A stretch of 64,000 bases of DNA from Actinomyces gerencseriae DSM 6844. GTDB lineage: Bacteria > Actinomycetota > Actinomycetes > Actinomycetales > Actinomycetaceae. A model generated the notes under the pieces. That model was not told the DNA's origin. It did not search any database and worked only from the letters and a program-made list of their open reading frames with translations. Below are positions 1,061 to 6,581 of the stretch, piece after piece. Position 1 is the first letter of the stretch, and the number at the start of each line of letters is the position of its first letter. Position numbers and translations under genes: made by a program. Where the stretch lies: NCBI RefSeq assembly GCF_000429265.1, contig NZ_AUBN01000015.1, positions 1-64,000 of the forward strand. The letters are read 5' to 3'.

Positions 1061-1108
1061 CGTCCTAGTCTGTTTCAACTGGGGTGGGTTTGAGCAGGAA
1101 TCTACCGG

Positions 1109-1199
1109 TACCCCCACTGGGATTCGAACCCAGGACCATGTGCTTATCAGGCACGCACGAGGTATAAGCTCGCTGCTCTAACCGCTGAGCTATGGGGGC
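1109..1199 (-). tRNA. tRNA-Ile-like gene, 91 nt, abnormal
   Basis: The minus strand gives a 7-bp acceptor stem (GCCCCCA with TGGGGGT, G1-U72 wobble), a D arm (GCTC/GAGC), a perfect T arm (CTGGG-TTCGAAT-CCCAG) and discriminator A. Between the D and T arms are 41 nt instead of the usual 23. They hold two hairpins. The first is GCGAG-CTTATAC-CTCGT, which as an anticodon arm would read UAU (Ile AUA) and make a class-II-like tRNA with a 23-nt variable region. The second is CGTGC-CTGATAA-GCACA, a textbook tRNA-Ile(GAU) loop followed by a normal TGGTC variable loop. Either it is an Ile tRNA with an 18-nt extra hairpin or an unusual long-arm tRNA. CCA is only partly encoded (ACCG). Confidence 0.6.
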
Positions 1200-2535: not shown

Positions 2536-2611
2536 CCGAGTCCCGCTCCCGGTCCGCCCTCGGTGCCCACGACTTGACCTGGAGCGGGCTCCAGGGAGCA
2601 CGCTGGCTCGC

Positions 2612-3586
2612 ATGGAGACGATCGAACTCGGCAGTAATAGCCCGAATGACGCCCTGATGGTGCCGCCGCTGGCAGTGGGCACGATGTACTTCGGCACCCG
2701 CGTCGCCCCGACCATCGCGCATGAGATCCTCGACGCCGCGCTCGACACCGGCGCGACGTTTCTGGACACCGCGAACAACTACGCCTTCTGGGTCGAGGAC
2801 GGAACCGGTGACGAGTCCGAGACGGTCCTCGGCGACTGGTTCGGCGCGCGCCCCGGCGCTCGCGAGCAGGTCGTCCTGGCGACCAAGATCGGCGCGCGCC
2901 CGTGGCCGGGCACCAGGAGCCTGGACGAGGCCCTCGGCCTGTCGGCGCCCGCGGTGCGGGAGCAGACGGAGCACAGCCTGATGCGCCTGCGCACCGATCG
3001 CATCGACGTGCTCTACGCCCACATCGACGACACCCGGGTGCCGATCGAGGAGACCGTGGGAGCCCTTCAGGAGGAGGTCCGCCGCGGCACGGCCCGAGTG
3101 ATCGCCTGCTCCAACATCACCTCCTCGCGACTCGGGGCCGGACTGCGCGCCGCTGCGGACGGCCCGCGCTACTCCGTCGTCCAGCAGCGCTTCACCTACC
3201 TGACCGCCGCGCCCGGCGCGGACCTGTCTCCCCACGTGCTCCTCGATGACGACCTCATCGACCTCGCCGTCGGCCAGCACCTCAGTCTGGCCGGCTACTC
3301 GCCGCTGCTCGGCGGCGCCTACACCCGGGACGATCGTCGACTGCCCGACGCCTACCGGCACGGTGCGACCGCCTCGCAGCTCGCCGCACTCGCACGTGCG
3401 GCGGACTCGACGGGACTGGACGCGGGCCAGGTCGTGCTGGCGTGGATGGCGGGCAGAGCCGTGACCGTGCTCCCCGTGGTCGGGGTGTCCACCAGGGCCC
3501 AGCTCGACTCGGCCGTGCGGGCGATGAGCGCCCCGCTGCCCGCGGCCGTGCTGGCCGACCTGGAGAGCGCACGCGGAACGGCATGA
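2612..3586 (+). CDS. Aldo/keto reductase
   Basis: A 324-residue NAD(P)H-dependent oxidoreductase of the aldo/keto reductase superfamily, a TIM-barrel enzyme reducing carbonyl compounds. The tetrad elements are visible: Asp and Tyr in FLDTANNYAFW, Lys in LATKIGARP, and His in VLYAHIDD. The C-terminal cofactor-binding region is around GRAVTVLPVVGVS. AGGGAG at about 2592 precedes the ATG. Its stop overlaps the start of the MerR regulator by 4 nt (ATGA), so the two are translationally coupled. The regulator may sense the reductase's substrate or an associated stress. The physiological substrate is unknown. Confidence 0.88.
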   Translation: METIELGSNSPNDALMVPPLAVGTMYFGTRVAPTIAHEILDAALDTGATFLDTANNYAFWVEDGTGDESETVLGDWFGARPGAREQVVLATKIGARPWPGTRSLDEALGLSAPAVREQTEHSLMRLRTDRIDVLYAHIDDTRVPIEETVGALQEEVRRGTARVIACSNITSSRLGAGLRAAADGPRYSVVQQRFTYLTAAPGADLSPHVLLDDDLIDLAVGQHLSLAGYSPLLGGAYTRDDRRLPDAYRHGATASQLAALARAADSTGLDAGQVVLAWMAGRAVTVLPVVGVSTRAQLDSAVRAMSAPLPAAVLADLESARGTA

Positions 3587-3987
3587 TGACCGGCGCCCGG
3601 AATCACGACTGCACGATCAGCGCGGCCGCCGAGCATCTTGGCCTGAGCGTCGACGCCCTGAGGTACTACGAGCGCGCAGGTGTCATTCCTCCGGCTGCTC
3701 GCGACGCGAGCGGCCGGCGCCGTTACGGGCCCGAGGAGCTGCACCTGCTGGACGTCCTGATCCACCTGCGCGACACCGGTATGCCCCTGGCCAGGATCGC
3801 CGAGTTCACCAGGCTCGTGCAGCAAGACCCGGACGGTGTGCCCGAGCGCCTCGCACTGCTGAGGGACCATCGGGAGGCCATTACCGAACGCATGGCGCGC
3901 CTGGCCCTGTCGCTGAGCGTCGTCGACGGCAAGATCGCGGACTACAGCGCCCGCCTCGACGCCGATTCCACGGGCGAGGGCCGCTAG
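3583..3987 (+). CDS. MerR-family transcriptional regulator
   Basis: A 134-residue DNA-binding protein. The N-terminal winged HTH is plain: ISAAAEHLGLSVDALRYYE, followed by AGVIPPAARDASGRRRYG, the canonical MerR helix-wing pattern. A dimerising coiled helix fills the C-terminus (LRDHREAITERMARLALSL). No cysteine cluster for metal binding is present; the single Cys is N-terminal. It most resembles the MerR regulators that accompany aldo/keto reductases or other oxidoreductases. ATG 3583 overlaps the upstream stop by 4 nt; ATG 3586 is an equally possible start. It probably regulates its own operon. Confidence 0.88.
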   Translation: MMTGARNHDCTISAAAEHLGLSVDALRYYERAGVIPPAARDASGRRRYGPEELHLLDVLIHLRDTGMPLARIAEFTRLVQQDPDGVPERLALLRDHREAITERMARLALSLSVVDGKIADYSARLDADSTGEGR

Positions 3988-4083
3988 AGACCCGCCGCCC
4001 CCTGGTTCGCCCTCCCGGCAGTGACTAGACTCTCCCCGGTCAGTGGTGCACCCACACAGCGGACGAAAACCAGGCGATGATCC

Positions 4084-6581
<2,498 letters not shown>

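Follow-up and report, generated by a model that had tools for sequence, protein, structure and literature searches.

A conserved GAU hairpin in the variable arm of a long tRNA-Ile(UAU) from Actinomyces and phages may act as a second anticodon for charging

Charging with isoleucine and reading of the codon are normally both done from one anticodon. The decoding of AUA is solved by tRNA-Ile2(CAU) together with TilS (lysidine). UAU tRNAs that replace Ile2 are already known, and other types of UAU tRNA with a long arm have been described too. Replacements of Ile2 have been reported from 17 bacterial genomes (PMC8450103) and from 19 species (PMC4013482). They include the tRNA-Ile(UAU) of Bifidobacterium, Mycoplasma and Neorickettsia, that of M. 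mobile having been characterised in an organism that has no tilS, and the accessible text of these two papers mentions no extra anticodon in any of them. Long variable arms are found on allo-tRNAs, which join such an arm to an anticodon other than those of Ser, Leu or Tyr, have an 8/4 or 9/3 branch, count UAU among the commonest anticodons of their 8/4 kind, and are the subject of a SerRS hypothesis (PMC7609411). A variable arm is also present on the nematode nev-tRNA-Ile(UAU) (PMC4300185), the nev-tRNAs being eukaryotic, charged with Leu in vitro, and endowed with class II recognition elements in that arm (PMC4033280). Anticodon-like hairpins outside the anticodon arm are bound by synthetases in the E. 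coli thrS operator and other mRNA mimics, which are regulatory mRNA and involve no tRNA (PMC9976931), and two anticodon arms have been claimed for a chloroplast tRNA-Ser (PMC10228390). In an engineered E. coli system, a GUG pseudo-anticodon placed in the variable arm helped to recruit HisRS variants to which a further anticodon-binding domain had been added, with modest effect (PMC7590224). In the literature searched, no natural tRNA with separate charging and decoding triplets was found.

Here we analyse a tRNA gene near the start of a 64,000-nucleotide stretch of the Actinomyces gerencseriae DSM 6844 genome (positions 1 to 64,000 of contig NZ_AUBN01000015.1, hereafter the window). An initial annotation had proposed a tRNA-Ile-like gene with two anticodon-like hairpins, leaving its strand unstated. 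The gene is real, and lies at 1109..1199 on the minus strand, as do all of its parts given below: ARAGORN calls a tRNA-Ile(TAT) at 1107-1199 (-), the Rfam model RF00005 matches 1199..1109 with 60.4 bits against a gathering threshold of 29, which places the sequence in the tRNA family, and in 19 distinct Actinomyces sequences every one of the 25 pairs that make up the five arms is preserved (475 of 475 pair cells). The acceptor, D and T arms are thus as sound as had been claimed. The tRNA measures 91 nt to A73, and a full CCA is not encoded. Its sequence starts with the 5' strand of the acceptor stem (tRNA 1-7, 1193..1199), which pairs with 1110-1116; the discriminator A73 is at 1109. The D arm, GCUC/GAGC (tRNA 10-25, 1175..1190), was placed by the Rfam alignment and pair counts, and is followed by A26, by the anticodon arm GCGAG-CUUAUAC-CUCGU (1157..1173) with the decoding anticodon UAU at 1164-1166, by 2 nt, and by the variable-arm hairpin GUGC-CUGAUAA-GCAC (1140..1154), whose loop holds GAU, the proposed charging anticodon, at 1146-1148. 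A 6-nt stretch, AUGGUC (1134..1139), leads from the variable stem to the T arm CUGGG-UUCGAAU-CCCAG (1117..1133), likewise placed by the Rfam alignment and pair counts. The spacing of 41 nt from D arm to T arm given in the initial annotation is exact, and the two hairpins are what it took them for, CTTATAC being the loop of a UAU anticodon arm and CTGATAA an Ile GAU loop. The latter is identical to the anticodon loop of the normal tRNA-Ile(GAU) of the same genome, so that the variable arm carries the anticodon loop of a cognate isoacceptor and qualifies as a pseudo-anticodon whose use by the synthetase for charging is putative. The five-arm structure has a predicted energy of -34.4 kcal/mol against -36.5 for the minimum free energy (MFE) structure, which is another fold, and the cloverleaf of the normal tRNA-Ile(GAU) has -30.5 against -31.2, so in neither case is the unmodified cloverleaf the MFE structure.

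The length of 91 nt had been held to fit class II geometry exactly, which is wrong in detail. As in class II tRNAs, there is a long variable arm with a stem, made of 4 bp and marked by a compensatory change. However, the variable stem is separated from the T stem by 6 nt in the window tRNA and mostly by 5-6 nt in viral Ile(TAT) tRNAs, as against mostly 0-2 nt in Leu and Ser tRNAs and 0-4, mostly 3, in Tyr tRNAs (viral loci, among the matches listed), and the window tRNA therefore does not share the short spacing before the T stem (mostly 0-3 nt) seen in class II. Because of these 6 nt, the GAU loop stands in class I register: with the 3' strand of its stem added, it lies 10 nt from the T stem, as does the anticodon loop of a class I tRNA with a 5-nt variable loop. 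The acceptor/T stems are 7/5 and, together with A73 and the GAU loop, set this tRNA apart from the 8/4 and 9/3 allo-tRNAs (PMC7609411). The nearest precedent for its variable arm is the engineered one, which likewise has an anticodon-arm mimic in the variable arm, apart from the decoding anticodon, that contributes to charging. That system was designed, on an allo-tRNA chassis with a fused HisRS and for amber suppression, whereas the Actinomyces tRNA is natural, of 7/5 type, and concerns Ile and a sense codon (PMC7590224).

The five-arm tRNA is present in all 49 Actinomyces genomes searched, with 93-100% identity, well beyond what chance would give. In these 49 copies the UAU anticodon arm is invariant, and so is the variable-arm loop CUGAUAA, a conservation that the initial annotation had missed, while the stem of the variable arm reads GUGC/GCAC in 45 copies and GUGU/ACAC in 4. 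The linker before the variable hairpin varies in length and sequence (CC 21, GTC 10, TTC 6, GC 5, ATC 3, GA 2, CA 2). Among the 19 distinct sequences, pairs altered on both sides are found in three stems, those of the acceptor, the variable arm and the T arm. In a sample of 200 genomes of the family, a covariance model scored 115-120 bits in 37 of 37 Actinomyces genomes and did not exceed 64.8 in the remaining 163. A pattern with both loops, the variable one given as CTGATAA only, matched 29 loci in 84,980 species genomes, 28 of them in Actinomyces and one in a Blastocatellia metagenome-assembled genome (MAG). When the pattern was opened to both classes, 10 of 396 genomes of the order matched; 7 were Actinomyces with the long form, and the 3 from outside Actinomyces were of class I length. 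The reverse pattern, applied to 396 genomes of the phylum, matched in the window's own genome only. The initial annotation had stated that a second intact Ile(GAU) gene showing this one to be a degraded duplicate would refute its reading, and such an intact gene does exist elsewhere in the genome. Nevertheless, conservation across the genus excludes decay: with 49 of 49 genomes carrying the gene, all stems paired, and compensatory changes, the idea of a degraded duplicate or an insertion-damaged tRNA-Ile(GAU) is ruled out, and we give it a negligible probability.

The usual route to AUA appears to be missing from this organism. Rfam models identify 51 tRNAs in the window's genome, and a search for other Ile tRNAs, suggested in the initial annotation, found one normal tRNA-Ile(GAU) and no tRNA-Ile2(CAU); the only two CAU tRNAs among the 51 were assigned by us, on sequence, to initiator and elongator Met. 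No tilS match was obtained in this genome (a draft of 28 contigs, 99.99% complete), while 14 of 14 control genomes matched. Likewise, in the family sample, tilS exceeded the cut-off in 0 of 37 Actinomyces genomes, with weak hits below it in 9, the sole one opened (L130) being a GMP synthase, whereas 158 of 163 sister-genus genomes had a match at E <= 0.001, 155 of them over the cut-off. A gene that is intact and conserved, in a genome where tilS and Ile2(CAU) are not found, has the sequence profile of a UAU-type reader of AUA, as in M. mobile (PMC8450103, PMC4013482). This supports one of the two options of the initial annotation, a long-variable-arm tRNA reading AUA. The codon is rare but used: among the 668 Ile codons of 35 window ORFs, selected heuristically, 11 are AUA.

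Given the long arm, SerRS or LeuRS might be the charging enzyme, so that Ser or Leu would be placed at AUA, as considered for allo-tRNAs (PMC7609411) and the nematode nev-tRNA-Ile(UAU) (PMC4300185), both of which include UAU members with long variable arms. We regard this as extremely improbable. The 7/5 stems, A73 and class I-like D arm all speak against it, as do the 5-6 nt that follow the variable stem, compared with mostly 0-3 in Leu, Ser and Tyr tRNAs. In addition, 11 of the 668 Ile codons in the window would be misread in an organism where no other AUA reader was found, and the kept GAU would be left unexplained.

We consider it probable, instead, that the gene encodes a functional tRNA-Ile bearing two anticodons, UAU decoding AUA, and the GAU of the variable arm serving as a pseudo-anticodon read by IleRS for charging. 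UAU, at the ordinary anticodon position, would pair with AUA on the ribosome, while the 7-nt loop of the variable arm, centred on GAU and as far from the T arm as in class I, would be read by IleRS together with A73, leading to charging of a tRNA whose true anticodon IleRS would read poorly. In work by Taniguchi from 2013, bacterial IleRS is reported to be possibly a poor charger of UAU. Counted from the D arm, UAU is at class I distance, and counted from the T arm, GAU is; each of the hairpins could therefore stack on the D stem, so that the two might be swapped. We infer charging with Ile, the role of IleRS as GAU reader, the hairpin swap, and the phage origin considered below. The discriminator and the anticodon are strong Ile determinants for IleRS, and so is t6A37 for IleRS of the bacterial type (PMC9976931). 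The last point argues against charging through GAU, given that most viral GAU loops have U37. A further counter-point is that the Actinomyces IleRS, which among solved structures is closest to eukaryote-like enzymes, may read UAU directly. Moreover, in the engineered precedent wild-type HisRS also charged tRNAs with altered pseudo-anticodons (PMC7590224), which likewise weighs against our reading.

Outside Actinomyces, the copy of the Blastocatellia MAG has the hairpin GCGC-CUGAUAA-GCGC and sits in an array of 13 tRNAs. This MAG also has TilS, which counts against our reading. Copies in viral contigs were found by two scans naming CTGATAA; five further viral loci of these scans were discarded, ARAGORN finding no tRNA in them (L145-L147 and L149, which share one sequence, and L153). 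By blastn, the window tRNA had no match in plasmids and matched 21 phage records, 0 of which covered 80% of it. Named carriers, in which the tRNA itself was read, are the Vibrio phages Luma and henriette 12B8, Acinetobacter phage vB_AbaS_qsb1 and Synechococcus phage SynMITS9220M01. With the qsb1-type copy as query, Blast matched 44 phage records (43 Vibrio, 1 Acinetobacter), 3 of them at 80% of the query or more; these are matched records, as distinct from the four phages in which the tRNA was read. Of the viral copies that were compared, L148 is the one most similar to the window tRNA (84%), followed by L151 and L143, and the L143 contig has a ribonucleotide reductase that is nearest, at about 45%, to those of phages of Actinomycetia and Mycobacterium, which together make a phage origin of the Actinomyces gene plausible.

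In order to follow the association of the two triplets in viruses, a forward test used two viral scans for long UAU tRNAs in which the variable loop was not named. Together with earlier loci, these gave at least 78 distinct long UAU tRNAs, reduced to 71 by removal of 7 that came from loop-naming scans (each forward scan gave at least 120 loci, of which 80 were looked at in one of them; 9 of 210 pattern places were dropped for weak stems). Among the matches listed, 57 of the 71 had a V region of at least 21 nt, and 14 a shorter one. A 7-nt hairpin loop centred on GAU was present in 55 of the 57, the figure being 55 over all 71 listed, as the 21-nt divide was chosen after inspection of the data. 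The two exceptions are L189, which has GAU with one stem mismatch (a 56th case), and L279, which has GAC. Among the matches listed with a V region of 16-20 nt, GAU occurred in 0 of 14, these having other loops or none. The 55 loops read CAGATTA (33), TAGATTG (9), CAGATAA (4), CCGATTA (2) and CTGATTA (2), plus five singles, and end 10 nt (34) or 9 nt (21) before the T stem; a distance of 9 or 10 nt holds for 62 of 62 viral GAU hairpins among the matches listed. The reverse test fixed the loop CWGATWA and its distance, and left the anticodon free. From 119 of at least 120 loci it yielded 53 distinct cores, one of which (L394) was rejected for want of a tRNA fold, and all 52 tRNAs, among the matches listed, had UAU and A73, as did 33 of 33 from the 63 loci first brought in by this test. 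As a control, in 201 viral loci a variable hairpin centred on GAT was found in 58 of 74 Ile(TAT) tRNAs and in 3 of 180 other class II tRNAs of the same contigs, among the matches listed (Fisher 1.7e-38, only a guide because the sequences are related). In 27 distinct viral hairpins not selected for GAU, 25 among the matches listed had it, with an entropy of 0.23, 0.23 and 0.38 bits at positions 34-36 against 1.08-1.34 at 32, 33, 37 and 38. These entropies, with the forward, reverse and control counts, indicate that GAU is the most strictly kept part of the loop and that it goes with UAU; at the level of sequence, the coupling of UAU and GAU is clear across phages and bacteria. In 29 GAU hairpins, loop-naming loci included, each stem position shows several pair types and is paired in 28, 29, 29 and 29 cases, a pairing that is partly due to rule, the hairpin finder demanding at least 3 pairs, and that shuffles of the 29-hairpin count flatter.

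This coupling bears on the reading of the tRNA as a plain tRNA-Ile(UAU), whose UAU is taken directly by IleRS, and whose GAU hairpin is passively left over from a tRNA-Ile(GAU) to which a further anticodon arm was added. The class I register of the GAU loop as seen from the T side agrees with it, as do the eukaryote-like IleRS of Actinomyces and the class I length of the three matches from elsewhere in the order. Phages, too, carry at least 80 distinct class I UAU tRNAs, all with A73 and with no GAU arm, so the pseudo-anticodon is not needed everywhere. However, a passive remnant should drift, whereas GAU is kept in 25 of 27 listed viral hairpins while the loop flanks vary, and the coupling holds both ways. 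We consider this account unlikely.

A decoding loop normally has U33 and a purine at 37; A33 or U37 would impair decoding, while a synthetase could still read the triplet. Of the 62 viral GAU loops among the matches listed, 52 are without U33 (A33 in 49) and 47 without a purine at 37 (U37 in 47), the hairpins of this set, as of the 29 above, having been chosen for GAU, so that G34-A35-U36 cannot vary there. With U33 and purine 37 mostly absent, most viral GAU loops look unfit for decoding. This weighs against a dual decoder, in which either hairpin could act as the anticodon arm, UAU reading AUA and GAU reading AUC/AUU. Such a tRNA would be in keeping with the register of UAU from the D arm and of GAU from the T arm, and in Actinomyces the loops CUUAUAC and CUGAUAA both look fit for decoding. 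On the other hand, the window's genome has a normal Ile(GAU) gene, and phage Luma additionally encodes a GAU tRNA-Ile. We hold dual decoding to be highly improbable. The GAU hairpin might also serve as a decoy or tag towards some other factor that reads tRNA-Ile(GAU), a modifying enzyme or an anticodon nuclease being examples. An association with defence by anticodon nucleases is common among phage tRNAs, and the Blastocatellia copy lies, within its array of 13 tRNAs, on a contig whose ORFs include some that we take to be RtcA- and RtcB-like. This explanation, which seems to us improbable, accounts neither for GAU arms being on UAU tRNAs in 52 of 52 listed cases of the reverse test, nor for presence in 49 of 49 Actinomyces genomes.

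Beyond the single tRNA, and with slightly less assurance than for its mechanism, we favour the view that these sequences form a natural family in which the jobs of the anticodon are split over two arms, spread by phages as an AUA reader independent of TilS, and adopted by Actinomyces, which lost TilS and tRNA-Ile2(CAU). In phages, AUA would be read in this way without the TilS of the host, and in Actinomyces the five-arm tRNA would have taken the place of TilS and tRNA-Ile2(CAU). If true, Actinomyces would be a bacterial genus in which a sense-codon tRNA depends on a second, non-decoding anticodon. If confirmed, this would be a natural case of charging and decoding being read from two anticodons, and would account both for a genus living without the usually essential TilS and for phages bringing an AUA tRNA independent of host lysidine. 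It would also offer a natural scaffold for tRNAs that read another codon while the second loop fixes the amino acid. The five-arm tRNA makes the reading of GAU by IleRS outside its usual place a testable matter.

Several minor observations were made alongside. A second family of long UAU tRNAs occurs in viruses (L169, L201, L284, L293, L319, L333, L342, L344, L350 and L355), with the loop CTTATAA, a V region of 19-20 nt with CTAGCAA, CTCACAA, CTGACAA or CTTGCAA, A73, and no GAU. Five genomes of the family outside Actinomyces have neither a tilS match nor the five-arm tRNA (by elimination, G086, G103, G116, G182 and G211); some are incomplete, while G116 is 99% complete. On the Blastocatellia contig (L115, regions 43-1964 and 2541-5435), the tRNA array is accompanied by the ORFs that resemble the RNA-repair proteins RtcA and RtcB. 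On the plus strand of the window, a Plastid-ycf2 match at 1108-1199 is taken to be spurious (31.1 bits, below the gathering threshold of 65.7); this 5'UTR model matches the antisense of the tRNA and may hold an antisense tRNA-Ile stretch. Finally, the tRNA gene is adjoined by a transposase-like ORF at 254-1060, presumably of IS630 type, which contains a long C run at about 932-948 and may be frameshifted.
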